Source: Spirochaetales bacterium (GTDB taxonomy: Bacteria > Spirochaetota > Spirochaetia > Treponematales > UBA12059). Taken from it: 44,832 nucleotides of DNA. The DNA is taken from assembly GCA_016928955.1 (NCBI GenBank), contig JAFGJV010000005.1, forward strand, positions 1 to 44,832. Direction: 5' to 3'. Positions 14,306 to 33,338 of this stretch are shown here, piece by piece. The notes under the pieces are model-generated. The model was given only the letters and a program-made list of their open reading frames with translations, was not told the DNA's origin and searched no databases. The position numbers were made by a program, and so were the translations under genes. Each line of letters starts with the position of its first letter. The stretch's first letter is position 1.

Positions 14306-16444
14306 TCACTTGTACACGTCGCCCAAAGCGGCGCGTAGCATGCTTTCTATGTCTTTGTGGCCTAGCCGAACGGCCATGGCCAGGGCGTCGTCCTCTACCC
14401 AGTCGGTCAGGCGCAGGTCTGCCCCGGCGGCCATGAGCTGTTTCACCGCGGACGTATTGCCCGCCTGAACCGCCTGCATGAGGGCCGTTTCTCGCTTTCG
14501 CTCAATCACGCCGCTGGCCTTGCCCTTAAGGAGGTCCATGCGCGCGTTTGTATCAAGCTTGAGGCCAAGTACATAGTCGATCATGGCCTTGTTGCCAGAA
14601 CGCACGGCGTAGCCCAGGGCTGTGTAGCCCTCAAAAGAGACGCGGTGGACGTCGGCCCCTTTCTCGACCAGATACTTGGCGATGGTTACGTTGCCCGACT
14701 CGCAGGCGGCCAAGAACGGCGTGCGGTAGGGGTACAGCTCAAGCCCCACACTGGCGAGCTTTGGCTCCAACTCAGCACCTGAATCAAGAAGAAGTTTCAC
14801 CATGTCGAGCGACCCGCTTATGGCCGCGTCGCCCAGCATGGAATCACGGTGGGTTGGCCACATTGCGTTGAGCGCGTAGCCTTCAGCCAAGAGGAAGCGA
14901 ACTATGTCCAGTCGGCTGGCCATGATGGCGTCTTCCAGTATCTGCTTTTTTTCAAACATGCCAAGCTTGGCCGACGGCGACGTGTATACCGTCTTGAAGC
15001 CGCCTGTGTCGTTGGCAGCAACCCGCTCGAGCAAGAGTTCGTAGGTGCTTGGCGCGTAGTCGGGATACTCTTCCTTGAGGCCTCCCTTGTCCAAAAGATA
15101 GCGGTACAGTTCGGGGTTTTCTTTCTTGGCCGCGCGGAGGGCAGTCTCCATGTCTTCCTTGGGCAGATCCTGGCGCCGCTCAAGCAGAAGGTCAACGATC
15201 TCATAGGACTTGGTTATGGCATGCCAGCGCACGGCCATGGTCAAGGGATAGATAGCTAGCTTTTGGGCCGCAAGAAATGCTGTGAGATTGGGTAGTTCCT
15301 TGCGAAGGGCTGCCGCGCTTCCTGCATAGATGGCGCCCATGAGCGGATGCTCGGTGGCCCCTGCCTTGAGGAGGGCCGAGGCCAGGTCTGCGCGCAGGTC
15401 GGCACGGGCGGCGAGCATGGCTGTCCAGCCCTCGTCGTTTGGCTGGTTCACGTCCACGCCCGCGTCTATGAGCGCCTTGACCGTTGGGAAACTGCCGCTT
15501 GAGGTGGCAAACAGTATGGGCGAGCGCTGTTTTACGTCGTTCCTGGTGTAGTTTATGGTGCTCGAGCCCATGAAAAAATCGCTGACAAAGGCGGTGGCAG
15601 ACTTGGCGTTTATGTTGGCCCCGGCCTCTATGAGGAGTTTGCACACATCCGCATAACCTCCACGGGCGGCCATCATAAGCGGCGTGTACTTGTACTCCGA
15701 TACGGCCGCGTCCACTTTTGCCCCGGCGGCAAGCAGGAGGCGAACGCAGTCGGCATGCCCCATCGCAGAGGCGGCCCACAGGGGCGTGGCTTTAATGTAG
15801 CCAGACAAGCATGCGCTTGATTCAGTCTTGGCTTGCTGTTGTATTGCCTGTTCCACCAGGTCGGCGTATCCATGGAGTGATGCCTGAACCAAAAATGGAC
15901 CTGGGTCAGCGGTTCCATATCCGTTGCCGAAATTATTAACGTTATACGATGAGTGGGGCGCACGAAAAAAAAGCGACATGACTGCGTGGCTGGGTGTTTG
16001 CAATGCAAGAGCGTACAGCTTGTAGCTTGAGCCTACCGTGCATCCCTTGGCTATCAGGTAGTCCACGGTGGCCGGCTGTTCTAGCTCGGCCGCCCGTATA
16101 AGGGCGCGCTCGCCGCTTTCCTGGTCGAACCATCCGCGATCTACTATGGCCTTGACCACATCCAGCCGCCTGTGGGCAACGGCCAGTTCCAGGGGCGTGG
16201 CGTCCTTGGGGCTGACCACATACTCTCCCTCGCCCACGCCCTGGCTGACCAGGGACAAAGCGCGGCTGTAATCCCTGAGCTTTATGGCCCGCATGAGCGG
16301 GGCCGCGCTGGCTATGGTGCCGCCCTCGCCGTAGGCCTGGTCGCCGCCCATTTCCAGCATTTTTGACACGGTGGCGCACGAGCTTAAGACAAGGGCTGAA
16401 AGCGCCAGGGCGCACACGAGCGAACGAAAAGGTCTGTTCTTCAT
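14306..16444 (-). CDS. Ankyrin-repeat lipoprotein
   Basis: A 712-residue protein with a lipoprotein signal peptide (LVLSSC, lipidated Cys23), followed by many 30-33-residue ankyrin repeats. Clear ones read TPLMMAARGGYADVCKLLIEAGANIN, then GWTAMLAARADLRADLASALLKAGA, GYTALGYAVRSGNKAMIDYVL and ETALMQAVQAGNTSAVKQLMAAGADL, with about 12-15 units by eye. It should be tethered in the cell envelope and bind other proteins. ATG 16444 has AAGGAG 7 nt upstream. It is the last of three minus-strand lipoprotein genes. Base composition is somewhat lower in GC than the neighbouring housekeeping genes. The partner is unknown. Confidence 0.88.
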   Translation of the reverse strand: MKNRPFRSLVCALALSALVLSSCATVSKMLEMGGDQAYGEGGTIASAAPLMRAIKLRDYSRALSLVSQGVGEGEYVVSPKDATPLELAVAHRRLDVVKAIVDRGWFDQESGERALIRAAELEQPATVDYLIAKGCTVGSSYKLYALALQTPSHAVMSLFFRAPHSSYNVNNFGNGYGTADPGPFLVQASLHGYADLVEQAIQQQAKTESSACLSGYIKATPLWAASAMGHADCVRLLLAAGAKVDAAVSEYKYTPLMMAARGGYADVCKLLIEAGANINAKSATAFVSDFFMGSSTINYTRNDVKQRSPILFATSSGSFPTVKALIDAGVDVNQPNDEGWTAMLAARADLRADLASALLKAGATEHPLMGAIYAGSAAALRKELPNLTAFLAAQKLAIYPLTMAVRWHAITKSYEIVDLLLERRQDLPKEDMETALRAAKKENPELYRYLLDKGGLKEEYPDYAPSTYELLLERVAANDTGGFKTVYTSPSAKLGMFEKKQILEDAIMASRLDIVRFLLAEGYALNAMWPTHRDSMLGDAAISGSLDMVKLLLDSGAELEPKLASVGLELYPYRTPFLAACESGNVTIAKYLVEKGADVHRVSFEGYTALGYAVRSGNKAMIDYVLGLKLDTNARMDLLKGKASGVIERKRETALMQAVQAGNTSAVKQLMAAGADLRLTDWVEDDALAMAVRLGHKDIESMLRAALGDVYK

Positions 16445-16516
16445 ACAAGCTCCTTCAACAAGCTCTGGATTCGTTTGGCTGGGATTATTTTCTTAGTCCC
16501 CGAAACCAATTCAATT

Positions 16517-17806
16517 CTAATTGGCTACAATATCGTCCTTAAAAGTTTTCCAGACATCCGCCGCTTGATAATCAGACAACACGGCAAACGGTACATAGTA
16601 GGTACGGTCGGGCATCAAAGACGGATCCCCGTAGAACGTGTATGTATCAATCGTGGGTGGAACCATAGGATACAGGCGAACTGATGTTAGCGCGTGGCAC
16701 CAGCCAAACACGCCGTAGGGCATAGTGGTGATCCCATACCCTAGCACAACGGAGTTCAGTGAATCGCAGCCTTGAAAAACGCTATAGCCCAGCTCGTTGA
16801 TGCTACCTAGGTCGACGGTCTCAAGGGCATCGCAGTTCTCGAAGGCGGAATCAAGCATTTTCGTTACGTTCGGTGCATCGGGTAGCGAGCTAAGCCTCAA
16901 GCAGCCTTCGAACGCATGAGGTGAGAACTCCGTCAAAGAGCTGCCAAGGCTGGCGCGCTCAAGGGCTTCACAATGGGCAAAAGCAAGCTCGCCAATAGTC
17001 TGGAGAGAGTCGGGAGCATCTATCTCCTTCAGCGCGTCGCACATAAAAAAGGCTTGAACCCCTATGGACTGGAGCTTGCTTCCAAAGCTGACGGTCTCCA
17101 AGGCATCACAACGGTAAAAAGCCTGGTTGCCTATGCTCAAAAGCCCGTCGGGTAGCTCTATGGCCGTCAGTGATGTACACCTGAGAAAAGCTCCATTGCC
17201 TAAGGAGGTGACCTTTGATCCAATATCAACCGAGAGTAAGGCGGAGCAACCTGAAAAAACAGAATCGCCTATTGTTGTAACCGACTCGGGCACGGTAACC
17301 CGTTTGATAACCGTGTTGCCGTCCACTTTGAAAAAGGTCTGGTTCAGCGCCGTTACAGGCATGCCGCTATCCGCCGTCGGAGGTATGGCCACGTATTCGT
17401 CGCTTCCAATGTATATCCCAAGGGTAACCTGACCCCCCGCGGAGGTTCTGCCAAAATCGGTGTAGGGCGTGTAGGTCAGCTCATACAGAGCTTCCGCACA
17501 GGAGGATGTATCCCAGCCATCCTTACAGGCTATGGCCTTCATGGTTTCCGCTATGGGGATAGGTCCTGAATAAACTGGGCTTGTCGAGTCCGGCTCGGAA
17601 CCGTCTACCGTGTAGCGAATCAAAGCCCCGTCGGTGGAACAGGTAATTTCCACGAGCCGGGCCCTGTTCTGCGGCCCCGGTTCCAGTGAAAAGCCGGGAA
17701 TCGCCACAACGGGCACTTCGTCCACACCAAGGGCGCACGAGGCAAAACCCAGTGTAACGGTAAAGAGCGTAAGCGTAATGGCCCAAGACGCGTTCTTTCT
17801 GTTCAT
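16517..17806 (-). CDS. BspA-type leucine-rich-repeat surface lipoprotein with chitobiase-like C-terminal (Fn3-associated) domain
   Basis: A 429-residue protein. The lipoprotein signal peptide ends LGFASC (Cys24). Residues about 45-110 match the CHB_HEX_C/Fn3-associated type (TCSTDGALIRYTVDGSEP then SPVYSGPI), a small beta domain usually attached to surface or carbohydrate-active proteins. From about residue 150 come roughly ten BspA-like repeats (VTTIGDSVFSGCSALLSVDI, LLSIGNQAFYRCDALETVSF). BspA-like proteins in treponemes and oral bacteroidetes bind host or bacterial surfaces; adhesion here is inference. The ATG at 17806 has AAGGGGAG close upstream; the six codons before it are probably not translated. 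It lies between the FG-GAP and ankyrin lipoproteins. Confidence 0.88.
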   Translation of the reverse strand: MNRKNASWAITLTLFTVTLGFASCALGVDEVPVVAIPGFSLEPGPQNRARLVEITCSTDGALIRYTVDGSEPDSTSPVYSGPIPIAETMKAIACKDGWDTSSCAEALYELTYTPYTDFGRTSAGGQVTLGIYIGSDEYVAIPPTADSGMPVTALNQTFFKVDGNTVIKRVTVPESVTTIGDSVFSGCSALLSVDIGSKVTSLGNGAFLRCTSLTAIELPDGLLSIGNQAFYRCDALETVSFGSKLQSIGVQAFFMCDALKEIDAPDSLQTIGELAFAHCEALERASLGSSLTEFSPHAFEGCLRLSSLPDAPNVTKMLDSAFENCDALETVDLGSINELGYSVFQGCDSLNSVVLGYGITTMPYGVFGWCHALTSVRLYPMVPPTIDTYTFYGDPSLMPDRTYYVPFAVLSDYQAADVWKTFKDDIVAN

Positions 17807-17869
17807 AGTCTCCCCTTCAATCATGTACTTGCCTTTTGGTTCTCTATAGGCACGAAAACATTTCTGCCC

Positions 17870-19153
17870 TCATTTCCGGAAATCAAAAACGGCTCCGGCG
17901 GTTTCTGCCAGGGTAGCGCTCCGCTCTTCTCCCACCAGAATGCCTGTTGGGTGGACGGCCACCGCCGAACCGAACCAATTGGATTCGTCCGGATTCGGAG
18001 AGGACAAAACGGACACCATGCGCCACAGGCCGTCTGGACAGAGCCTATATACCCATGCGATACCCGCATTGCTTGCGAATCTGTTGTCGTAGGGATCCGA
18101 CACAGCCATTCTTCCGGCCGCTATGCTCACGTGCCGGTACTGGTGCGTATTACTGCCCGTAGACGGAGGGACAAATTGGGCTTCCCGGGCCCAAGAGCCC
18201 GTTCCCGAATCCCGCTTAAAGATGCACACAGGGGCATCTATACCGCTGGACGGATTACCCAAAGCGGCTACGACGGCTCGATCGCCGTCAAAGGCAAGAG
18301 ATGAGCCAAAGCCAAGGCCGGCTATGCCTTCATTGGGCACCAGCTCGCGCGTATGGCTCCAACTTGTGCCGTCGTACTCGTATACATACACAAGCCCGCA
18401 GGCAACATTGTCCACTGCTTCCGGATCAAAGGCGTATTCCGCGCCCGTAGCCCCGGCCAGTATGATGCCGTCTCCCATGGCCAAGGAAGTCCCAAGGCGA
18501 TAGTCTGTCCAGCTGTTGTCGTCCAGCGTTGCTTCAAGCGACCACGCTGTTCCGGAGCGCTTGAACACATATACGATTCCCGCGGATTCTATTGCTCCTG
18601 CCTTTTTATCCGGCGCTCCTATAACCGCCCGATCTCCATACAGGGCAAGGGAAGCGCCGAAGTAGTCACCGGCAAGCGGACTGGGCGCTGCTAGTTCCGC
18701 CTCCTGGGTCCAGGAACCGTCGGCCCCCCTAGCAAACACAAACACGGCGCCTCGGAGGCTTGATCTCCGGGGCGCGCCCACGAGTGCCAGGTCTCCGTGT
18801 ATGGCCCCCGTAGTACCGGCTTCATCCCGCGGATCAAGATCCGATGGCTTGAGCGTGGCTACATGCTTCCATATACCGCTTGCGTCCAGCTCGTACACAA
18901 ACGCGCCGACGTCGGCTCCAATGGTAGGGCAGCCTACCAGAGCCCTGTTCTGATGTACTGATATGGAACGGCCCATGTGGCTGTTAGGGTATTCGGATGG
19001 ATGGTCCAGGCGCTCCAGGGAGCGGGCGACATACTGTTCTGAATAGTCCGTATACGAATTCACATCCGAGCAGGAGGCCAGCAAAGACGGCCCCAGTACC
19101 ATACATACACAAACCATGCAGGCCAGGGAAGCCCGCGCTCCTCTACATTTCAT
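17870..19153 (-). CDS. FG-GAP-repeat (beta-propeller) lipoprotein
   Basis: A 427-residue protein with an unusually Cys-rich lipoprotein signal peptide ending SLLASC (Cys28). The rest is a row of about seven repeats of the type FGxSLAxxGDRAVIGAP...GxVYVF, for example YFGASLALYGDRAVIGAP and GFGSSLAFDGDRAVVAAL, the sequence pattern of FG-GAP propeller blades. It is probably displayed in the envelope; function is unknown. ATG 19153 is preceded by AAAGAGG 6 nt upstream, better than the first in-frame start at 19195. It is the first gene of the three-lipoprotein group and diverges from the membrane-bound LuxR-type regulators across a gap holding a perfect dyad. Confidence 0.85.
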   Translation of the reverse strand: MKCRGARASLACMVCVCMVLGPSLLASCSDVNSYTDYSEQYVARSLERLDHPSEYPNSHMGRSISVHQNRALVGCPTIGADVGAFVYELDASGIWKHVATLKPSDLDPRDEAGTTGAIHGDLALVGAPRRSSLRGAVFVFARGADGSWTQEAELAAPSPLAGDYFGASLALYGDRAVIGAPDKKAGAIESAGIVYVFKRSGTAWSLEATLDDNSWTDYRLGTSLAMGDGIILAGATGAEYAFDPEAVDNVACGLVYVYEYDGTSWSHTRELVPNEGIAGLGFGSSLAFDGDRAVVAALGNPSSGIDAPVCIFKRDSGTGSWAREAQFVPPSTGSNTHQYRHVSIAAGRMAVSDPYDNRFASNAGIAWVYRLCPDGLWRMVSVLSSPNPDESNWFGSAVAVHPTGILVGEERSATLAETAGAVFDFRK

Positions 19154-19219
19154 GCTGCACCTCTTTGTGCGGCAGTCTAGCGCAGAAGCTTGCATCTGAG
19201 TAAAAGGGCCGGGGCTGAT

Positions 19220-19254
19220 TTTTGTATGAGACCGTACTCATACAAAAGTATGAG
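19220..19254. promoter_or_regulatory. Perfect 28-bp dyad with a third half-site, likely operator
   Basis: TTTTGTATGAG (19220-19230) and CTCATACAAAA (19237-19247) are perfect 11-bp arms around 6 nt, followed at once by a third GTATGAG (19248-19254). It lies in the 146-bp gap between the FG-GAP lipoprotein and the first LuxR-type gene. The centre is about 62 bp upstream of the predicted start of the LuxR-type gene, a usual activator position. The AT-rich stem and lack of a GC core argue against a terminator. Confidence 0.6.
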
Positions 19255-19259
19255 GCACC

Positions 19260-19289
19260 TTGTTCCAGTGGTATCTTTGAGCGTATACT
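19260..19289 (+). promoter_or_regulatory. Promoter of the first 7TM-LuxR gene
   Basis: TTGTTC (19260-19265), an 18-bp spacer and TATACT (19284-19289). The -10 ends 10 nt before the ATG at 19300, so the transcript would be nearly leaderless. Confidence 0.5.
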
Positions 19290-19299
19290 GCGGACAATT

Positions 19300-20253
19300 A
19301 TGGAAATCATTGTGCTTCGCCGCATATCAGTCTTCAGCGCCATCGCGTTAGGCCTGGCGCTTGGGGCGGCGATACCCTTTGTCAGGAAAAAGCGGGGCGA
19401 CAAGGGATTCAACGCTTTCTACTACACGCTGGTGCCCGGCATAGTGTCGGCGATCCTTGAGCTCGTATTGTCGAATTGCAGCGAAAGCTCAGCCTACCGC
19501 CCGCTCTTGGTGGACCTGGCTCGCGCGGCTCGCATACTCATGGGGCCCGCATGGCTGAGCTTCTGCCATGTTCACTATACGTTGATCCTCCGCGGCAGAG
19601 GCTTGCCCCTCTATCGGTGGTGGCTCGCCCTGAACGCTGTAGGCGTGCTTCTGCTTGCCGGATCCATCGCATGGCCGGAATTCGAGGCTGTCCAGAAACG
19701 CGCGTCATCCCTGATCCTGAGCTCAACGCTTTTTTACGCGGGCAGTATGGCCTTTGCCGTGCTCAGGCACACCAAGAAACTTTCCCTTTCCTCCTGGGCG
19801 GGAATCGTTTGCGCCGGCATCAGCATGGTGTACTATCCGTTCATAGCGCTGTCTGAGGCCTTCGGGCTCCAGTTCAGCAATTTTTCCACGGACTACCCCC
19901 TGTCTTTCCAGGTATTTCCGTTCTACTTCAGCGTCATCTGCCTGATAGTGGCCTTCTTCCTCTGGCTGTCCCACAAAGGTTGCACCAAAGGACAGCTGGT
20001 TACATCCGCCGAGGGCCCGTCCGCCGCGTACACGCCCCCACCGGGCCTGCTGTCGCCCAGGGAAAAAGACGTATACGCCCTGTTGGTCCAGGGATGCTCG
20101 GCCTCAGACATAGCCGACAGGCTGTGCGTGTCTCTGTCGACGATAAAAACCCATACCCGGTCCATATACACCAAACTGGACCTGAGCGGCAGGCACGAGG
20201 CTATGGCCCTCCATAGAGGGACCAAGCCTGGCGAGCCTGGGACGCGGGACTAG
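19300..20253 (+). CDS. Seven-helix membrane protein with C-terminal LuxR-type DNA-binding domain (first of a pair)
   Basis: A 317-residue protein. About seven hydrophobic helices fill the first 220 residues, for example FSAIALGLALGAAIPFV, WWLALNAVGVLLLAGSIAW and FYFSVICLIVAFFLWL. A linker and a LuxR-type helix-turn-helix follow (LSPREKDVYALLVQG then SLSTIKTHTRSIYTKLDL). It appears to be a one-component membrane receptor that binds DNA directly. Helix 3 carries FCHVHY, helix 5 FYAG and RH, and helix 6 VYYP; the same residues recur in the next gene. ATG 19300 is preferred over 19222 because the upstream codons lie over the operator and promoter. It probably regulates itself and the divergent lipoprotein genes (inference). 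Confidence 0.82.
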   Translation: MEIIVLRRISVFSAIALGLALGAAIPFVRKKRGDKGFNAFYYTLVPGIVSAILELVLSNCSESSAYRPLLVDLARAARILMGPAWLSFCHVHYTLILRGRGLPLYRWWLALNAVGVLLLAGSIAWPEFEAVQKRASSLILSSTLFYAGSMAFAVLRHTKKLSLSSWAGIVCAGISMVYYPFIALSEAFGLQFSNFSTDYPLSFQVFPFYFSVICLIVAFFLWLSHKGCTKGQLVTSAEGPSAAYTPPPGLLSPREKDVYALLVQGCSASDIADRLCVSLSTIKTHTRSIYTKLDLSGRHEAMALHRGTKPGEPGTRD

Positions 20254-20255
20254 CC

Positions 20256-21176
20256 ATGGAGACAGCAGTCTACCTGGCGTCACTCGCGGCAGTCCTGTGG
20301 ACAGCCTCGTCTGTGTCCAGGATCGCAAGCTCGAACGTCAACAAAACGGACAATCATTCTGCGGACCGGGGTCTGCCTTTCATGCTCGTTCCTCTCGGGC
20401 TCGTAGGCCTGGTCATACTGCTTGAGCACGCGCGCCTATACGGTCCCTCTATGGACACCCTCGGCATGCGTCTGGCCGTAGGCTTCACGCGGCGCTGCAT
20501 GGGCGGAGCCTGGCTTTTTTTCTGCACGGCGCATTACCGGCTGTATTCGCTTGTCGAGCCCAGGCACCGACTTACGCCCTGGTTGCTGTGGCTGAGCCTG
20601 GCAGCCAACCTTGCGTACGTTGCGCTGAACCTTGTCATGGGACCAGGCGCCTGGGATACGGCCAGCATGGGGCTCATGATGGCCGTAGCCTTCTATGCGG
20701 GCGCGGACGCCATCTTCCTGGCAATCAGGCACGACGCCTTCCTGGCGTCCTCAAAGGCAGGCATCCGCATAGCCATGATGACCATGGTCGTCTACCCGGT
20801 GGTGGTGATCAGCGATCTGGCGGGCGTGCGTTTCCCGGGCCTGAGCCACGGCCGGCCCATGTGGAGCCAGACAAATCCGCTCTACCTGCTGGTTCTGCTT
20901 GCGATGCTCGAGCCGGCACTGCCAAAGACCAGCCGGACTGATATCCAGGCCAGTGACAACGCTCCTACGGAGAGCGCCAATGGCCAGCCAAAGCTTTCCC
21001 TTTCCCAGAGGGAACACCAAGTTCTGCGCTTGATAGTAGAAGGCAAGAGATACAAAGAAATAGCCGCCGCGCTTGACATCAGCATGCCCACGGTAAAAAG
21101 CCACGTAAGCTCCGCGTACCGCAAACTCGGCGTCAAGGGACGGGCTGACCTCTACCGCCGTTCTTTGCTACAATAG
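20256..21176 (+). CDS. Seven-helix membrane protein with C-terminal LuxR-type DNA-binding domain (second of a pair)
   Basis: A 306-residue paralogue of the preceding gene, starting 2 nt after its stop. It has the same plan: about seven helices (VPLGLVGLVILLEHA, WLLWLSLAANLAYVALNL, YLLVLLAMLEPAL), then a LuxR-type helix-turn-helix (LSQREHQVLRLIVEG with PTVKSHVSSAYRKLGV). Shared positions include FCTAHY in helix 3, FYAGADAI...IRH in helix 5 and VVYP with a following S-L-G pattern in helix 6. The sequences differ strongly outside these positions, so the pair is an old duplication, perhaps forming a heterodimer or sensing two ligands. There is no phosphoacceptor receiver domain. The ligand is unknown. 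Confidence 0.85.
   Translation: METAVYLASLAAVLWTASSVSRIASSNVNKTDNHSADRGLPFMLVPLGLVGLVILLEHARLYGPSMDTLGMRLAVGFTRRCMGGAWLFFCTAHYRLYSLVEPRHRLTPWLLWLSLAANLAYVALNLVMGPGAWDTASMGLMMAVAFYAGADAIFLAIRHDAFLASSKAGIRIAMMTMVVYPVVVISDLAGVRFPGLSHGRPMWSQTNPLYLLVLLAMLEPALPKTSRTDIQASDNAPTESANGQPKLSLSQREHQVLRLIVEGKRYKEIAAALDISMPTVKSHVSSAYRKLGVKGRADLYRRSLLQ
21145..21174 (+). promoter_or_regulatory. Promoter of the HAD phosphatase gene inside the end of the LuxR-type gene
   Basis: CTGACC (21145-21150), an 18-bp spacer and TACAAT (21169-21174), ending 7 nt before the ATG at 21182. There is no ribosome-binding site, so a leaderless transcript is likely. Confidence 0.5.
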
Positions 21177-21181
21177 CGCCC

Positions 21182-21838
21182 ATGATCAAAGCCATCATTT
21201 TTGACCTGGACGGCACCCTGGTGGATACGCTTGCGGACATAGCCGGCATGATGAACATGCTCCTGTCCGAGCGCGGCCTGCCCACGCACAGCCTGGAAGA
21301 CTACCGGTACATGGTGGGCAGAGGCTTCGCAAGCCTTCTGCGCTCCGCCTTGCCTCCGGATTCGAGCGTGGATCTTGACCGCTTCGAGATGGACGCCTTT
21401 GCCCGCTACAAGGCCATGGGCTCAGGGTCTTCCCGGCCCTATCCCGGGGTGGTGGATGCCCTGGCGACGCTCGCTTCCGGCGGCATCAAGCTGGGTGTCC
21501 TGTCCAACAAACCCGATCCCATGACCGCGGACATGATAGCCACCCTGTTTCCCGGCACCCGCTTCGGTTTTGTGCGGGGCGGGTTGCCCGGCGTGCCGCT
21601 GAAGCCTGACCCAACCACGGCACTGGAGGCGGCCACAGCCCTGGGCGCGGCTCCCTCCGAGTGCGCCTTTGTGGGCGACTCCGACGTGGACATGCGCACG
21701 GCCGTCAACGCCGGCATGCTGGCCGTGGGCGCCGCCTGGGGCTTCCGCACGGAGGACGAACTCAAGGCGGCCGGGGCGGCCGTAATCGCTCAGTCCATGG
21801 CCGACGTAACGGCCCTGGCTTCGGATTCATCCCGATAG
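21182..21838 (+). CDS. HAD-superfamily phosphatase, phosphoglycolate phosphatase-like
   Basis: A 218-residue hydrolase. Motif I is FDLDGTLVDT (nucleophile Asp8, general acid Asp10), motif II is the SNKPDP region, and motif III/IV ends with FVGDSDVDMRTAVNAGM. A four-helix cap follows motif I, as in Gph and related beta-phosphoglucomutase-type enzymes. The closest functional guess is 2-phosphoglycolate phosphatase, but substrates of this group overlap and cannot be read from sequence. No Shine-Dalgarno precedes the ATG. The gene is followed after about 145 nt by phosphoglucomutase. Confidence 0.88.
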   Translation: MIKAIIFDLDGTLVDTLADIAGMMNMLLSERGLPTHSLEDYRYMVGRGFASLLRSALPPDSSVDLDRFEMDAFARYKAMGSGSSRPYPGVVDALATLASGGIKLGVLSNKPDPMTADMIATLFPGTRFGFVRGGLPGVPLKPDPTTALEAATALGAAPSECAFVGDSDVDMRTAVNAGMLAVGAAWGFRTEDELKAAGAAVIAQSMADVTALASDSSR

Positions 21839-24785: not shown

Positions 24786-27700
24786 ATGACCAAGACAGGG
24801 TCGCACAAGAGCGCTTTTTCGTCGGTCGTGACGATCGTCGCGCTGATCCTATCGGCACTGGTGCTTTCAACCTGCAAGGGCCCCTTGTTCGGGCTCGGCG
24901 GTGCCGTCGACCTGGAAGCTCCCCGGTCAATCGAGGTTACCCCCGGTTCCGGCTCGTACCGTTCCGGCGTCATAGCCGTGAGCGGCGTGGCCGAGGACGC
25001 ATACGGCCTGGCTTCAGCCAGCGTGTCCGTCCTGGACAAAGCCACGGGGCAGGTGCTCAGGACCTACCCGGCCACCGTGTCTGGTTCCACCTGGACCACA
25101 GGCGCCGTGGTGGATACCACGCAGTTCCCTGACGGCCAGTACACCGTGGCCGTTACCCTCAAGGACGCGCGCGGCAACTCGTCGGAGGACCGCGTTCTCA
25201 TAGGCTTTGACAACAGCGCGCCCACCGTGCTGGTGGAGGAGCCCCTGGACCTGGACGCAGAGTACAACGGCTACATCACCCTGGCCGGCCAGGCGCACGA
25301 CAGCATGTCGTCCATCGTGAGCGTCACCGTGGGCGTGTACCGCGCCAGCGACTCAAGCATGGTGGACGAGTTCCTGTCCGCCACCGTGCCCAAATGGGCC
25401 GTGCAGTTCAACGCCGCCGATCCCGCGTACTCCCTGACCCTGGCCGATCTCGTGCTGGTGGTCCAGGCCACCGACGAGGGCGGCAATACCAACACCTGGC
25501 AGTACGAGTACAAGCCCCTGGCCACGGCCAACGCCGGCAGCCCCGTGACCGCGTCCCTTGTGAACCAGCTCGAGTCCCAGGCCCAGGATACGGACACGGT
25601 GGACGGCCTGACCTTCAACAAGGCGACGCTCCTGTCCTACCGCTCCTTCCTGGACCCTGCCGTGCCGGCAGACGCGTCCATACTCAAGGTCAATGTAGAC
25701 AGCGACAAGCCCACGTTCACCTTCGTGACGCCCGGAGAGGCTTCCATCAGCGAGGCCACCGCCGAGCGTTACGCCGGTGGCACCAAGGCAAACGGAACCA
25801 TCAGCGACGACGACAACAACGAAACCATGCTTGCGTGGTACCGCTACGTTCCTTCCACCGGCAATATTGAGGACGGAGCCTGGACCCCCGCCACGGTGGA
25901 AGGCTCCGGTTACGACCAGCGCTGGAGCTTCAACCTTCCAGGAACGAACGGTATCTATAAGATCCAGGTTAGGGCCCAGGACAAAATAGTAGCCGGTAGC
26001 CCGACAGCTGACAGCGTGTTCGGGGAGTCCGCCGTTCGCTATGTGATAGTGGACGATGGACGCCCCTTGGTCAGCATAGACACGAACAATCCCGTACCGT
26101 GGAACCTGTATTACGGTAGCGGCCAGTCCATACTGGTCAGCGGCTCGGCGTCGCGCACCGGCGTCGGGAACTCGATCGTGGACGTTGAGATCCAGGTCGG
26201 CTCGAATCCCTGGGCCGACGTTACGGGTCTTTCGGGACTGGGCACGAACACCGTTACCTGGTCCAGCCATTCTTTGTCCCTGGCTGGCTTGCCAGGCGGA
26301 TCCACCCAGGTTCGGGTACGCGCCCAGGATAATCTGGGCGTATGGGGCCAGGCGGAAGTCCTCATTATCATGGACGTTGACGCCCCGGTCATTACCATCA
26401 GCGACCCGGGCGTGGACCTGAACGGTTCCGTTACCTTCCGGGGCATCACCGAGGACGGCGCGGCGGACGCCTTTATCACCGTGCTCGACCGCGTGCAGGC
26501 CAAGCTGGACGCGGCGTTTACCGCAGATCCCGACGACGGCACCGAGATCACCGGCACCTATTCGTGGTCCTGGCTGTACAACACCCAGAGCCTCTCGGAC
26601 GGCGGCCATACCCTGTACATACGCGCCTGGGACACGGCCGGAAACTCGTCCACCACAAGCCGCGCCTTCACCGTGCTCCAGAGCACGGATAAACCCAGCG
26701 TGGCGGTGAACAACCTTGCAGGCGGCGAGGTTATAGGCGGTACCTTCACGGTGTCAGGCACGGCCAGTGACGACGACGGCGTGGCATCCGTTGACGACGG
26801 CATCCAGATTCTGATCGAGCGCGAGGATCCTCCGGCCACCTGGACCGTTTACCAGGCCTGGACGGACATAGCATCCCGCTCAGGCTCGCCGTCAGCGTAC
26901 TCGTGGACCTATGCCCTGCCCTCCCTGCCCTCGGGCAGCTACCGCGTGAGCGTCCGCGCGCGCGACATCAATTCCGTCGTGGGCGACTACGGCTCGGCGG
27001 CCCTGCCCCAGGCCAACTACTGGGCGTCCACCGCGGCCCTGGCCATCAACGTGGACAACGACGTGCCCGTGGTCAACCAGGCTGCCTTCGTCCCAGCCAC
27101 CGGCTCCTACGTCAACGCCGGCTTCACGCTCTCAGGCACCATCACCGAGGACAAGGGCCTGTCTGCGGTCACCGTGTACGTCAACGGCACGGCCCGCGGC
27201 AGCGCCACCGTGACCGGCGCCGCGCCCACGTACTCCTTCGAGTTCGCCGTGGACCAGGCCTGGCTCACCGGCGTCGGCGGCGCCAACGCCATACGCGTGG
27301 ACGCTACCGATACCTCAGACCCGGCCAAAACCGGCTCCGGCCAGATCCAGGTGATCTTTGACGACTCGGAACCTTCGGCGTCCTTCCTGACCCCGGATGA
27401 CGGCTCAACGGTCAACGGCCTCATAGCCGTGAGCGGCACGGCCAGCGACAACAACCAGGTAAGCGCCCTGTACTACGCCGTTGCCACGTCGGCCCCGGCC
27501 TGGCCGGGCGGCTACACCCTGCTTACCGGGCAGAAATACTCCTTCAACTTCACCCTGGACACCACCGCCTATACCGACGACACGGCCTACACCGTGTACG
27601 TTGTGGCCGTTGACGGAGCGGGCAACGATTCGTCGCTGTCTCCCGCGACCCTGGCCATCGATATCGACCAGGACTCGGACCGGCCCATCATCAAGCTGTC

Positions 27701-30700
27701 CAACGTGGATCCCGACGGCCTGCCGTCGCAGACCACGCTCAAGATGTCCAACACCGTGTACGGCAGCGTGTCCGACGACGACGGTACCCTGACCTCGCTG
27801 GAAGTCAGCGAGGACGGCTCGGCCTGGTCGGCGGTCACCCTGTCGGGCGGCACCTTCAGCTACGACTCGTCCGCGGGCGACGGGGTCAAGACCCTGTGGT
27901 TCCGCGTGGTCGACAAGCTCGGCCGCTCCTTTGCCACCAACGCGGCGGCCAGCGCCGACCGCCCGCGCATAGAGAACGGGGCGCCGGGCATGTACATCGA
28001 GTCCACCGTGTCATACAGCGTGGACACCAAATTCCCGGACGTGTTCTCCGTCATATCGACCGACCGCACGGCCGCCTACGACTTTGCGGACGCCGTTGAC
28101 CTGGTCAACAGCATGTCCTTCGGCGGCTCGTCCGGCGTGTTCAAGGTACGCGTCCTGGCCACGGACGAATCCGGCATAGGCTCGGTCAGCGTGGCCGTGC
28201 CAGGCGCCTCCGGCTCGCCCTTCGCGGCCACGGCCAACGGCACCGAGGTCCAGGGCGGCACCACATACACGCGCTACGACACCGGCCTCATAGACGTGAC
28301 CAGCGGCATAACGGACGGCGCCCTGACCGTCACCATAGGCGTCACCGACGCGTCCAACCTGACCAGCACCCTGATACGCACCATCATCATTGACAACACG
28401 GCACCCTCGTACTCGGTGACCACGCCGGCCATGAACGAGGTGGTCAACGGCGACATCACCATCAAGGGAACGGCCCTGGACCAGACGGCCGGCCTTGCCA
28501 GCGTCGAGTACAAACTGGGTTACAACCACGCCGGCGAGGCATGGGCGCCGGTGGACGGCTCCATATACAGCTGGGAGATAGACCTGACCGGCGCCAACAA
28601 GTCGGACCTGTACGCCGGCAAGGCCGTGACCGCGGACTATGCATCCGACTATCTTCTCGCCACGGCACACGGGCTGGCGGACGGCACCATGGTCTTCTTC
28701 AGCGCCGCGACCCTGCCCGGAGGCCTGTCGGCCGCCACCACCTATTACGTTCGCGACTCCAGCGCCAACCAGTTCAAGGTCGCTCTCGCTCCCGCCGACC
28801 CCGCCGTGAACATCACCAGCAATGGTTCCGACGTGTTCGCGAGCGCCGAATCCAAGGATCCCGACAACGACCAGATATGGGATTTCCCCATACTTCTGCG
28901 CGCCACGGACAACGCCGGCAACCAGATCGTCACCACGGTCACGGATTACGTCATCAAGCTGGACCCGGGCGGGGATCGGCCGCGCGTAACCGTCTCCTAT
29001 CCCGACGAGCCGGGCAAGACTTTGGGCGGCACCATACGCGTGTACGGCCTGGCCACGGACGACGACGCGGTGAACTCGGTGTACATGCAGGTTGACGACA
29101 CGGGCGACGGCGTTGCCGACACGGACAGCCTGGGCACCGACTGGTACAACGGAGGGCTCGGGCAACCGGTAACCGGCTCGGCCAACTGGTACCGCATCAT
29201 CAATCAGAGCGGCGAGTTCGACCCGGTATCGGGCACCAACACCATCCACATACGCGCCCGCGGACAGGACATATACGGCACCTACGGCGCGTGGACGGCC
29301 TGGCAGGAAATCATCATAGACAAGAACGTGCCTCAGTTCGGCTCGCAGTCCGACATAGCCCTGGACCCAGACGCCACCCCGGCCAGCGGCAATGAAGACG
29401 TGTACGCCGTGGGCATGTGGGTCAACGGCGCCACCGTGTACCTGCGCGGCTCCATCACCGACGACGGCGGCATCACGGCCATCGAGGTTGACGGGTCGGT
29501 AAGCGGCTCCCTGGCCCTCAATCCCACCTGGTTCACCGCAGGCTATTCCGGCACCGGCTACGACATGGCCATTCCCATCACGCTGGACGCGGGAGCCTCG
29601 GGAGTCAAACAGCTGACCATCACCGCGTACGACAACAGCGCCACCCCGCGGGAGAGCGTCTTCGAGGTTCGCTTCAACTTCGACAACCAGGCTCCCACAG
29701 CCACCCTCAACGCGGCGGCCAGTCCCGCCGCCGTGGCCCAGAGCGATGGCTGGTACAAGGTCAAAGGCACGGCTCTTGACGACGGCTCGGACATAGACCG
29801 GGTTGAGGTGTACTTCGTACGCCGCGGCAACGGCAGCACCACCTTTGACCGCATATACAACCCTGGCCAGACCAACACCTGGGCCCTCCTGTCCAGCGTG
29901 GACTTCACGGACAACTACCCCACCCTCCAGGGCACGGCCAGCCGAGGCACCGAGTTTACCCTGACCCACGCGGCCCTTGCCAACAACAAGCTCATAGCTG
30001 TGGGCCAGAAAATCCTGGTCGGACCCGAGCTGCGCACCATCAGCGACTACGACAGCGCTACCGGCCTCATTACTTGGGCCGACGGCACCGTACTCACGTC
30101 GGAAACCTCGTACACCATCAGGCTCGGCCTCCAGGTCGACCACAAGGACACCATTGAGACGTCTGCGGTGGCCCAAGGCACCGTCGACCGGAGCGCCGGC
30201 CAGGAGAAAACCCTTGTGGACCCCGCCCTGTCGTCCAACACGGACATAAGCGTGGGCGACACGCTGAAAATCAACGGTGAGTACCGCATCATAGACACCT
30301 GGACACCGGGCACGGGCACCATCACCTGGACGGGTTTGGACGTGGCCGTTGGCGCTGGCCAGGCATACGAGGTCTACTCCGTTCTCAACGACGACATAGA
30401 CCACTACGTGGAGTACCTCAAGCAGACCAGCGGCATAGAGTACACCTGGTCGGTGGACATTAAGAGCGACGCCATACCGGACGGCCCCATAGAGATCCAC
30501 TACGTGGCCTTTGATACCGCGGGCAACCGCACCCACTACCAGACCACCGGTTACAAGGTCCAGAACAACGGGCCGCGCGTCGGCGCCATCGTGCTGGGTT
30601 CTGACCTGGACGGCAACGGCAGCGTCGATCCCCTGACCGAGACCGTGCAGTACGAGTATGACAGCGACACCGCTCTTACCGAGACCAAGGCCTTTGCGCT

Positions 30701-33338
30701 TACCGTCAAGGACGGACCCATGTACATAGAGCCCGTGGTCACCAACGGCAACGGGGACCTCCATCTGTGGATGACCGGCGCCCACACCCTGAGCGACTAC
30801 GCCCTGCGCACCGCCGGGACCGTGGATCCCATCGAGGTCATAGACGACGCCGAGCTGGCCGCCATGGGCGACGGCTCGCGTACCTTCACCATGGCCATCT
30901 GGGACGAGACCGAGGAAACCGAGCCGAACGTGGACAGCTTGAGCATCACGCGCGGCGCCACGGTGACCGTGGACTACGTGGACGGCGTGAAGCCCCACGC
31001 CGCCATCCGCCCGTTCTACTGGAACGACGAGGACGACAATTCCCTGTTTGAAAACAGCCGGGACAACGGCCACATAGAAATCACCGGCGTGACGCTGTAC
31101 GGCACAAGCGACCCTGACGTGTCCGGCAAGATCAGCGTGCGCGGCGTGGCCTACGACGACCAGCGCATCACGGCCATATACGCGTACATGGACGGCTATA
31201 CCTTCACTGGAGGCACCACCAAGACGATCGGCGCCTACACCTACACCCTCTTGTCCACCTACTCGGGTGGCTCGTGGACGGACGTGGACCAGTGGGCTAC
31301 CAACGGCTGGAAAGCCACCGTCACGGACGCCGGAATTGGCCAGGACGGCCACCGGATATCCTGGCTGCTGGACATAGACACCGGCAATAGCACGAACTTT
31401 GCGAGCCTTGCGGACACTGACCGCTTCATACGCGTTGTGGTTGAGGACAGGGCGGTAAGCCCCAGCCTTGAGACCGCCACGGCCAGCACGCTCACGGGCA
31501 CGGGAACGCGCCCCGCCATAAACAGCATCGTCGTCACTCCGGATCCGGACATCAAGCCTGGCCAGCTCGTCGTATTGGGTTCCGGCGACCAGGCATACGC
31601 GAGCCGCATCAGCTCCTACGACGCTGGCACCATCGTGTTCGCGTCCGCCGTAGACCAGGCCATAACGGCGTACACCATCTACCTGGACGGCCACCAGAAC
31701 CCCCTGTACCAGGTGGACGTTGTGCCGTACATAACGAGCATAGTCCGCGCGTCCAACAGCACCAGGTCAAGGCTGGGCAAGTATCCGCTGAGGAATTCCG
31801 AGGCCAACGTCATTGTGTCCGGCTTCAATCTCTTCACCTCGGCCACGCAGGACACCGACAACTGGATACGGATATACAGCGCGGCAACGGCCGGCAACTC
31901 AGACGCGGACGCCCTGGTCATAGAGGCCGCTCCCGCTCCGTCTACCAGCTCCTTCGAAATGACCATGAATGCCAACTCCAATTCAGGCTGGTTCCGACTG
32001 TCAGTGAACGGCATAGAGGCCATCAACAACATAGACGACAACGCCAAGGAGTGGAACAAAGAGATCGATGCGAGCAGCGCGGCGTCGACCGCCTCCTGGA
32101 CAAACGACCGCTACCTGATGCTGTTCAGGACGGGAGATTCCTTCAGGGACTCCCTGGACCCGGAATACGTATCGATGTCCTTTGACGCCAACAATAACCG
32201 TCTTGTAGGTGAATGGAGCAACTCGGGTTATTCGGCAACTTATTACGGCACGCCGGTGTCTGACGGTAATACCCGGACGCAGCTTTTCGCAACCTATGAT
32301 CCACCAACTTGGACAGACATATATGTGGAACCCGATGGCACGGTACACAGTGTTATTCTGGAGGATTACAATAATGGCGGTACCACATGGGGATTCCTTG
32401 CGGCTTACAGGAATACCGGCTCCAGGGTTTCAATTGAGGAATTAGGAGACGACAACCCTGACACGCCCCAGTCGGGTGACGGTTATGACGAAAAACTCCA
32501 CCAGTTCAGAAACGCAAGAATAGCCGTGCGGCCAGCGACAAATGACGTGTATGTCAGTTACTATGATTATTTCTCAAAGTGCCTTAAATACGGCCGCATG
32601 CTCAATGGTGCCCAGACCTTCGTTTCCGCGAACGGACACATGACTGATTCGGCCACTGTTGTGGCCGGTGTGGACGATTTCAGTGTAACTACGACTGACC
32701 CGGATGCTGGCTTGTGGTCAGATATACAGATCGACGACATAGGAGGTACGGATACGACATCCTGGCGGCCAGTGATTGTCTTCTATGACAACACAAATGA
32801 AAAGCTCAGGATTGCTCGCGGAAACTCCAATCAGCCTAGCGGAGCGGCCAACTGGACAATCAATGATGTTCCAGGTGGTTCCTATATGGGTTCTGGCTCA
32901 CTGTCCATGAAGATAGACGCGACCGGAGACCTTCATATAGTCACACGCGATGGCTATCAAGGCGGGTTGTATTACTTCCACGCCGATAACATCGATGGTA
33001 CCGGGTCTTATACCTTCGATGCGCCTGTTCTTATAGACGGGCAGACCGCAGACGGATCTTGGGCTGATTTGGCCTTAAACGGCACCTCTCCTATCATTTC
33101 CTACAAGAACGGCACCTCGTACAAGGGCCTCAAATACGCGTATGTGGCGAGCGGTACGGGCCTGTCGAGCTCGGATTGGGAATATATGATAGTCCCGTCT
33201 GCCACCGCCGTGGCAGACCAGCGCACAAACATCGAGTACACGGCCAGCGCCACGGACTTCCCGTATGACGGCAACGTGGCCTTTGGTTACGCGGCGTCCA
33301 ACTTCCAGATCATATACCTCAGGCGGCAGGTGCCATGA
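24786..33338 (+). CDS. Giant multi-domain lipoprotein with Ig-like repeats and C-terminal propeller-like region
   Basis: A 2850-residue envelope protein. The signal peptide ends ALVLSTC (lipidated Cys30). About 16 bacterial Ig-like units follow, each around 100-130 residues, typically P-x-V/I near the start and an SGTASDDDG/ITEDGG-like core, as in FTVSGTASDDDGVASV and VYLRGSITDDGGITAI. Small foreign-looking modules interrupt the row near DNA 28641-28860, 29938-30130, 30208-30380 and 31537-31690. The last 370 residues contain five or so repeats like IDATGDLHIVTRDGY and NGTSPIISYKNGT, which suggest a BNR/propeller fold. GGAGG lies 5 nt before ATG 24786. It is a single-gene unit between a sigma-54 promoter and a terminator. 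A surface stalk or adhesin is likely, but this is inference. The C-terminal part is lower in GC. Confidence 0.92.
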   Translation: MTKTGSHKSAFSSVVTIVALILSALVLSTCKGPLFGLGGAVDLEAPRSIEVTPGSGSYRSGVIAVSGVAEDAYGLASASVSVLDKATGQVLRTYPATVSGSTWTTGAVVDTTQFPDGQYTVAVTLKDARGNSSEDRVLIGFDNSAPTVLVEEPLDLDAEYNGYITLAGQAHDSMSSIVSVTVGVYRASDSSMVDEFLSATVPKWAVQFNAADPAYSLTLADLVLVVQATDEGGNTNTWQYEYKPLATANAGSPVTASLVNQLESQAQDTDTVDGLTFNKATLLSYRSFLDPAVPADASILKVNVDSDKPTFTFVTPGEASISEATAERYAGGTKANGTISDDDNNETMLAWYRYVPSTGNIEDGAWTPATVEGSGYDQRWSFNLPGTNGIYKIQVRAQDKIVAGSPTADSVFGESAVRYVIVDDGRPLVSIDTNNPVPWNLYYGSGQSILVSGSASRTGVGNSIVDVEIQVGSNPWADVTGLSGLGTNTVTWSSHSLSLAGLPGGSTQVRVRAQDNLGVWGQAEVLIIMDVDAPVITISDPGVDLNGSVTFRGITEDGAADAFITVLDRVQAKLDAAFTADPDDGTEITGTYSWSWLYNTQSLSDGGHTLYIRAWDTAGNSSTTSRAFTVLQSTDKPSVAVNNLAGGEVIGGTFTVSGTASDDDGVASVDDGIQILIEREDPPATWTVYQAWTDIASRSGSPSAYSWTYALPSLPSGSYRVSVRARDINSVVGDYGSAALPQANYWASTAALAINVDNDVPVVNQAAFVPATGSYVNAGFTLSGTITEDKGLSAVTVYVNGTARGSATVTGAAPTYSFEFAVDQAWLTGVGGANAIRVDATDTSDPAKTGSGQIQVIFDDSEPSASFLTPDDGSTVNGLIAVSGTASDNNQVSALYYAVATSAPAWPGGYTLLTGQKYSFNFTLDTTAYTDDTAYTVYVVAVDGAGNDSSLSPATLAIDIDQDSDRPIIKLSNVDPDGLPSQTTLKMSNTVYGSVSDDDGTLTSLEVSEDGSAWSAVTLSGGTFSYDSSAGDGVKTLWFRVVDKLGRSFATNAAASADRPRIENGAPGMYIESTVSYSVDTKFPDVFSVISTDRTAAYDFADAVDLVNSMSFGGSSGVFKVRVLATDESGIGSVSVAVPGASGSPFAATANGTEVQGGTTYTRYDTGLIDVTSGITDGALTVTIGVTDASNLTSTLIRTIIIDNTAPSYSVTTPAMNEVVNGDITIKGTALDQTAGLASVEYKLGYNHAGEAWAPVDGSIYSWEIDLTGANKSDLYAGKAVTADYASDYLLATAHGLADGTMVFFSAATLPGGLSAATTYYVRDSSANQFKVALAPADPAVNITSNGSDVFASAESKDPDNDQIWDFPILLRATDNAGNQIVTTVTDYVIKLDPGGDRPRVTVSYPDEPGKTLGGTIRVYGLATDDDAVNSVYMQVDDTGDGVADTDSLGTDWYNGGLGQPVTGSANWYRIINQSGEFDPVSGTNTIHIRARGQDIYGTYGAWTAWQEIIIDKNVPQFGSQSDIALDPDATPASGNEDVYAVGMWVNGATVYLRGSITDDGGITAIEVDGSVSGSLALNPTWFTAGYSGTGYDMAIPITLDAGASGVKQLTITAYDNSATPRESVFEVRFNFDNQAPTATLNAAASPAAVAQSDGWYKVKGTALDDGSDIDRVEVYFVRRGNGSTTFDRIYNPGQTNTWALLSSVDFTDNYPTLQGTASRGTEFTLTHAALANNKLIAVGQKILVGPELRTISDYDSATGLITWADGTVLTSETSYTIRLGLQVDHKDTIETSAVAQGTVDRSAGQEKTLVDPALSSNTDISVGDTLKINGEYRIIDTWTPGTGTITWTGLDVAVGAGQAYEVYSVLNDDIDHYVEYLKQTSGIEYTWSVDIKSDAIPDGPIEIHYVAFDTAGNRTHYQTTGYKVQNNGPRVGAIVLGSDLDGNGSVDPLTETVQYEYDSDTALTETKAFALTVKDGPMYIEPVVTNGNGDLHLWMTGAHTLSDYALRTAGTVDPIEVIDDAELAAMGDGSRTFTMAIWDETEETEPNVDSLSITRGATVTVDYVDGVKPHAAIRPFYWNDEDDNSLFENSRDNGHIEITGVTLYGTSDPDVSGKISVRGVAYDDQRITAIYAYMDGYTFTGGTTKTIGAYTYTLLSTYSGGSWTDVDQWATNGWKATVTDAGIGQDGHRISWLLDIDTGNSTNFASLADTDRFIRVVVEDRAVSPSLETATASTLTGTGTRPAINSIVVTPDPDIKPGQLVVLGSGDQAYASRISSYDAGTIVFASAVDQAITAYTIYLDGHQNPLYQVDVVPYITSIVRASNSTRSRLGKYPLRNSEANVIVSGFNLFTSATQDTDNWIRIYSAATAGNSDADALVIEAAPAPSTSSFEMTMNANSNSGWFRLSVNGIEAINNIDDNAKEWNKEIDASSAASTASWTNDRYLMLFRTGDSFRDSLDPEYVSMSFDANNNRLVGEWSNSGYSATYYGTPVSDGNTRTQLFATYDPPTWTDIYVEPDGTVHSVILEDYNNGGTTWGFLAAYRNTGSRVSIEELGDDNPDTPQSGDGYDEKLHQFRNARIAVRPATNDVYVSYYDYFSKCLKYGRMLNGAQTFVSANGHMTDSATVVAGVDDFSVTTTDPDAGLWSDIQIDDIGGTDTTSWRPVIVFYDNTNEKLRIARGNSNQPSGAANWTINDVPGGSYMGSGSLSMKIDATGDLHIVTRDGYQGGLYYFHADNIDGTGSYTFDAPVLIDGQTADGSWADLALNGTSPIISYKNGTSYKGLKYAYVASGTGLSSSDWEYMIVPSATAVADQRTNIEYTASATDFPYDGNVAFGYAASNFQIIYLRRQVP

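Follow-up and report, generated by a model that had tools for sequence, protein, structure and literature searches.

Two neighbouring genes of a Spirochaetales contig, A and B, encode proteins with seven predicted membrane helices followed by a C-terminal LuxR-type (GerE) helix-turn-helix (HTH), and on balance they are probably membrane-embedded one-component regulators which act together at positions 19220–19254, controlling a divergent lipoprotein operon and themselves. The computed basis of this reading is the architecture, the topology, the paralogy, the conserved pairing, the conserved lipoprotein neighbourhood and the presence of an inverted repeat. Positions refer to the window, i.e. 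the whole stretch of 44,832 nucleotides that was analysed; helix positions are residues in the AlphaFold2 models.

14306..16444, minus strand: ankyrin-repeat lipoprotein with lipobox, third gene of the divergent operon
16517..17824, minus strand: BspA-type LRR_5 lipoprotein with lipobox, second gene of the divergent operon
17870..19195, minus strand: FG-GAP_2 repeat lipoprotein with lipobox LLASC, probably starting at an inner ATG; first gene of the divergent operon
19220..19247, no strand: perfect inverted repeat with 11-nt arms and a 6-nt spacer, TTTTGTATGAG accgta CTCATACAAAA; candidate operator in the divergent promoter region
19237..19254, no strand: overlapping inverted repeat CTCATAC-AAAA-GTATGAG with a third half-site, an 18-bp palindrome; candidate operator
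19300..20253, plus strand: gene A, 7TM-LuxR protein, ATG start, 317 aa; helices at about 2–32, 35–59, 67–96, 105–120, 126–157, 163–187 and 201–225, LuxR HTH at about 250–305
20256..21176, plus strand: gene B, 7TM-LuxR protein, 306 aa; helices at about 2–32, 40–62, 69–96, 102–128, 134–158, 164–189 and 202–217, LuxR HTH at about 248–301

Architecture and predicted structure of A and B

Genes A and B are both on the plus strand, separated by 2 bp. The ATG of A at 19300 agrees with the alignment of relatives; an in-frame TTG upstream, at 19222, is located inside the inverted repeat, and a start there would read across that repeat. Both proteins matched Pfam GerE (PF00196) above the curated cut-off of 23.5 bits (A, 45.7 bits; B, 68.2 bits); the other Pfam matches were weaker, of HTH type, and overlapped the same C-terminal stretch, NCBIfam yielded only related HTH matches far under their cut-offs, and no Pfam family covering the membrane part of A or B was found. 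The K-x-H of the recognition helix is retained (IKTH in A, VKSH in B), and the HTH of B superimposes on the NarL–DNA structure 1je8 with 0.8 Å rmsd over 52 columns. A and B are paralogues (BLASTP, 33% identity over 232 residues, E = 3e-24), with identities ranging from 26 to 33% across comparisons. The assembly as a whole (2.87 Mb, 59 contigs, 99.5% complete) contains no other GerE protein, which makes local control natural, and a third copy of the A/B membrane part was not found in it. An identity as AHL quorum-sensing LuxR proteins was rejected for lack of an autoinducer-binding domain: no such family matched A or B at E values up to 1, and the N-terminal part consists of the seven membrane helices.

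AlphaFold2 models from a 13-row alignment have, in A and B alike, seven long helices and then a four-helix HTH (A, pLDDT 83.5, pTM 0.72; B, pLDDT 84.3, pTM 0.69), with a linker at about 227–245 as the main poorly predicted inter-domain segment (pLDDT below 50). Lysine and arginine make up 17.0% of the predicted inside loops versus 7.4% of the outside loops among 13 relatives (p = 3e-8), and these charges fit an N-out/C-in orientation, by which the DNA-binding domain of A and B would be cytoplasmic. Together, the models and the loop charges give exactly seven predicted helices, an N-terminus outside and an HTH in the cytoplasm. The original prediction had described the two neighbours as about seven membrane helices plus a LuxR-type HTH, and hence as a one-step membrane sensor; this plan held up, and neither fewer helices nor an extracytoplasmic DNA-binding domain was found.

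The A model aligned to GPCR-like folds over its whole membrane part (designed GPCR-like fold 8oyx, Z 19.1, rmsd 3.6 Å, 215 residues; mGlu2–mGlu3 8jcx, Z 18.5; rank 50 still Z 16.0), and the B model more weakly (best Z 14.2), where the query models are themselves predicted and helical bundles reach a Z of about 14 through their common arrangement. A profile of 12 relatives matched no PDB sequence at E values up to 5, i.e. no sequence similarity to GPCRs of known structure was found, and with the behaviour of bundles in such scores the likeness is one of fold only; it may reflect convergence. Rhodopsin-like light sensing was rejected, as there is no Schiff-base lysine in helix 7 (no lysine in B, 202–217; the first lysine there in A is at the cytoplasmic end). 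Neither HisKA_7TM (PF16927) nor 7TMR-DISM_7TM (PF07695) matched A or B at E values up to 1.

Residues shared by A and B within the membrane part comprise FCxxHY in helix 3, FYAG and RH in helix 5, and YP in helix 6; these had been pointed out before, with the helix-6 motif slightly misquoted as VYP (VYYP in A, VVYP in B). By alignment, they are part of the general paralogy and not isolated matches. Conservation in homologues, on which their proposed significance depended, did not extend to most of them: in the 13-row alignment FC is retained only in A, B and one further protein (G275_2), and no protein other than A and B has H-Y and RH. In the models, helices 3 and 5 carry C90/H93/Y94 and R158/H159 (B numbering) at their cytoplasmic ends, and helix 6 has Y180-P181 in its outer half; the three motifs thus form no single pocket. 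The Cys/His metal or ligand site that had been suggested for FCxxHY and RH was therefore rejected, and the RH agrees with the positive charge that helices commonly carry at their inner ends. Across the membrane part just two residues are invariant, P181 and P208 of B, which are P180 and P207 in A; an acidic residue in 13 of 13 rows, D187 in B and E186 in A, gives P-x5-[DE] in helix 6, and in this alignment the mark of the family is P-x5-[DE] plus the proline before helix 7.

Relatives and the tandem pair

Single-sequence searches missed the relatives: a BLAST search of 99 genomes with the membrane part returned A and B only, and B alone against the genome contigs matched only unrelated LuxR domains, so that profiles were needed. 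The A–B group was found in 11 of 294 genomes of the order with profile A7 and in 13 of 394 with profile A9. A further profile, A8, constructed from A, B and a pair in genome G275, revealed nothing convincing beyond the known loci in 393 genomes of the phylum or in 245 genomes of the G275 family; two weak matches to part of the profile were obtained, one of them with stops.

Genome G275 belongs to another family of the same order and carries a tandem pair of 300 and 295 aa, with an ATGA overlap and in the same order as A and B. Its second protein, G275_2, has FC, SSxAG and YP in common with A and B, and both genes retain the helix-6 proline and QxxP preceding helix 7. In a tree of 13 proteins, A grouped with G275_1 (support 68; 63 with the membrane part only) and B with G275_2 (support 88; 84), the former support being modest (63–68). 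By this branching the tandem pair is probably older than the split between the two lineages. The same-order pair in G275 and the tree are the best evidence, from sequence comparison, that the A–B pairing is meaningful; the earlier view that the pairing is no accident is borne out to this extent. The 7TM-LuxR genes in relatives are mostly single. In genome G008 (L179, 7210–9157), a tandem 7TM-LuxR pair of a different subfamily, both proteins of 298 aa, was observed beside a TetR-like gene, which would mean that pairing emerged, or was preserved, repeatedly.

Among 23 genomes of the same family as the A/B host, about one quarter of the GerE proteins examined carry five or more hydrophobic segments. 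The membrane parts of LuxR proteins in relatives include HisKA_7TM, 7TMR-DISM_7TM and MASE6; LuxR outputs fused to HisKA_7TM or 7TMR-DISM_7TM are represented by L022, L072 and L076, with the HisKA_7TM matches in L072 and L076, which are other LuxR proteins. Within the A–B group, L094 is the sole member with a 7TMR-DISM_7TM match, of 21.9 bits and hence sub-threshold (cut-off, 29). Judged from these domain assignments, a LuxR domain combined with a multi-helix membrane domain is a recurrent theme in the host's family. LuxR proteins predicted to have about 11 TM segments were also observed outside the Coriobacteriia (L105, 447–1874; L110, 922–2469), as possible counterparts of the DadR type considered below. 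No description of seven-TM LuxR one-component regulators was found in the open-access literature (subscription papers lay outside the search). Of the suggestion that the family is undescribed, the part that stands is that no Pfam family represents the membrane domain of A or B; LuxR proteins with 10–12 TM helices are already described (PMC9734109), and LuxR–7TM fusions occur in relatives.

Lipoprotein neighbourhood and candidate operator

The three lipoprotein genes at 14306–19195 are a probable target of A and B. The LRR_5 protein at 16517..17824 is the only one in the A/B genome. Divergent to the G275 pair is a gene whose product, a lipoprotein of 808 aa, combines Big_2, Flg_new and LRR_5 domains; that genome has two LRR_5 proteins in all, this one included. 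Hence, a lipoprotein gene or operon containing LRR_5 is oriented divergently from the pair in either genome. At other loci of the group, an FG-GAP lipoprotein is encoded 3' of the receptor gene (G071, two loci; G157), the receptor gene is followed by a Big_13 lipoprotein (G006) or by a lipoprotein with an N-terminus resembling that of G071 (G003), or a Big_2 lipoprotein is encoded 5' of it (G023); an additional lipoprotein in G320 has lost its start at a contig end, and the loci of G002 and G013/G016 have no lipoprotein neighbour. The lipoprotein gene in G003 (L183, 6344–8342) appears to be split over two frames, by a frameshift or an assembly error.

An immediate lipoprotein neighbour is present at 8 of 13 group loci versus 8.4% of background genes (p = 2.8e-4), a comparison based on simple gene calling and one fixed lipobox rule, applied after the pattern had been noticed and in genomes in which lipoproteins are common. 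Most of the lipoprotein neighbours carry FG-GAP, LRR_5 or Ig-like domains. Adjacency to lipoproteins is no general feature of TM-LuxR proteins (4 of 22, versus 3 of 17 for soluble LuxR proteins) and, by these counts, appears only in the group defined by profiles A7 and A9.

Three further observations concern the surroundings. The window also encodes, at 24786–33338, a protein of 2850 aa that has bacterial Ig-like domains and a start resembling a lipobox and is possibly a further surface lipoprotein near the pair. In genome G015 (L155, 3763–8951), a soluble LuxR gene is located between two genes for ankyrin-like lipoproteins with N-termini resembling that of the 14306–16444 product. A HAD phosphatase gene begins 5 bp past B on the same strand (window 20256–21838), and A and B may be co-transcribed with the HAD, phosphoglucomutase and exonuclease genes.

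The divergent ORFs of A and the FG-GAP_2 gene are 104 bp apart, with the two overlapping inverted repeats in between. The 11-nt arms were matched by none of 1000 dinucleotide shuffles. The genome contains the 18-bp palindrome of 19237–19254 exactly once, and near-copies of the candidate operator (up to 3 mismatches) occur genome-wide at 71 sites versus 102 for the reversed control; being no commoner than the control, they give no sign of a regulon. The single copy and the unenriched near-copies fit a local operator, short of independent proof. Searches of the regions upstream of the G275 pair and of the other relatives yielded no matching inverted repeat, and given also the unenriched near-copies the candidate operator has no comparative support. 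No sigma-70-like promoter passed a consensus scan of 19100–19400.

Proposed mechanism, alternatives and known systems

In the proposed mechanism, the seven-helix bundle of A and B, with the N-terminus outside, would sense a signal in or across the cytoplasmic membrane. A ligand or a membrane state would alter the bundle, and the flexible linker at about 227–245 would pass this change on to the cytoplasmic NarL/GerE-type HTH. A and B would act together, in the form of either a heterodimer or two homodimers that depend on each other, with the overlapping inverted repeats as putative operator, and the targets would be the divergent FG-GAP, LRR_5 and ankyrin lipoprotein operon and the A/B operon itself. 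The heterodimer or two-ligand logic that had been proposed is possible.

Joint action has to be weighed against a reading in which the tandem is a mere duplication and A and B are membrane one-component regulators that each work as a lone homodimer, with different ligands or targets. LuxR-type HTH domains normally self-dimerise, most 7TM-LuxR genes in relatives are single, and A and B have diverged considerably (26–33% identity); the retention of the same gene order in G275, with the genes coupled in both genomes by the 2-bp gap or the ATGA overlap, and the tandem of another subfamily in G008 speak against independent action, which we consider a tentative, rather doubtful alternative. It is unlikely that the lipoprotein neighbourhood is incidental and that A and B regulate distant genes or the possibly co-transcribed HAD phosphatase and phosphoglucomutase genes downstream: the G275 pair adjoins an LRR_5 lipoprotein gene and not HAD or phosphoglucomutase genes, and lipoprotein neighbours are enriched as given above, against which stand the start of the HAD gene only 5 bp past the end of B, on the same strand, and the two group loci (G002, G013/G016) that have no such neighbour.

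A stronger version of joint action is quite improbable. It would make A and B a GPCR-fold receptor family wired to DNA, in which an obligate A–B heterodimer (cf. GABA-B, mGlu) reads a membrane ligand and binds the divergent operator with no G protein, kinase or second messenger in between, so setting which surface lipoproteins are displayed. Release of the HTH by regulated intramembrane proteolysis, with the seven-helix part as anchor and protease platform and not as ligand sensor, is very improbable. The poorly predicted linker (pLDDT below 50) would suit a cleavage site, but an anchor needs one helix and not a seven-helix domain with a conserved P-x5-[DE]; moreover, FLAG-tagged DadR without its TM part was produced yet inactive (PMC9734109), and CadC is a membrane-bound regulator that is active without cleavage (PMC5936718).

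If joint action of A and B at the divergent promoter region is the correct reading, seven-helix receptors can act as transcription factors without an intermediate step, small tandem receptor sets are dedicated to large surface lipoproteins, and membrane LuxR regulators extend beyond the Coriobacteriia, in which they were described. The route would be unusually short; the examples of such signalling known to date come mainly from gut Eggerthella. The locus is small, comprising two receptors, one candidate operator and one divergent operon in a genome with no other LuxR protein, and thus offers a clean test of a multi-helix membrane domain moving a LuxR DNA-binding domain.

The models of A and B resemble class C and designed GPCR-like folds, perhaps by convergence, in the predicted order and packing of seven helices and in the N-out/C-in orientation; they differ in having no sequence similarity and in an output that is predicted to be direct DNA binding and not G proteins. 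7TMR-DISM_7TM and HisKA_7TM are likewise bacterial seven-helix receptor domains, with varied cytoplasmic outputs, but neither family is matched by A or B. ToxR-like regulators (CadC, ToxR) consist of an N-terminal OmpR-type winged HTH, a single TM helix and a periplasmic domain; like A and B, they unite a sensor in the membrane and a DNA-binding domain in a single protein that acts from the membrane, whereas A and B have a C-terminal GerE HTH and seven helices, for which membership of the ToxR-like regulators was rejected.

Among tested systems, DadR of Eggerthella lenta comes closest to A and B. It is one of the LuxR regulators with 10–12 TM helices (DadR, HcdR, CadR) that are described and genetically tested in this organism; DadR is a 12-helix membrane LuxR protein which in response to dopamine activates the neighbouring dadh and may regulate itself (PMC9734109). 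The Coriobacteriia proteins resemble A and B in their N-terminal multi-helix membrane domain, C-terminal LuxR HTH, one-component plan and likely adjacent targets. Membership of this type was rejected, as both models have seven helices instead of 10–12; furthermore, the neighbours are metabolic enzymes in the Coriobacteriia but surface lipoproteins at A and B, and the conserved tandem pair sets A and B apart. Membrane-spanning LuxR one-component regulators are thus known, and what is new at this locus is that they have seven helices, are paired and are located beside surface lipoproteins.
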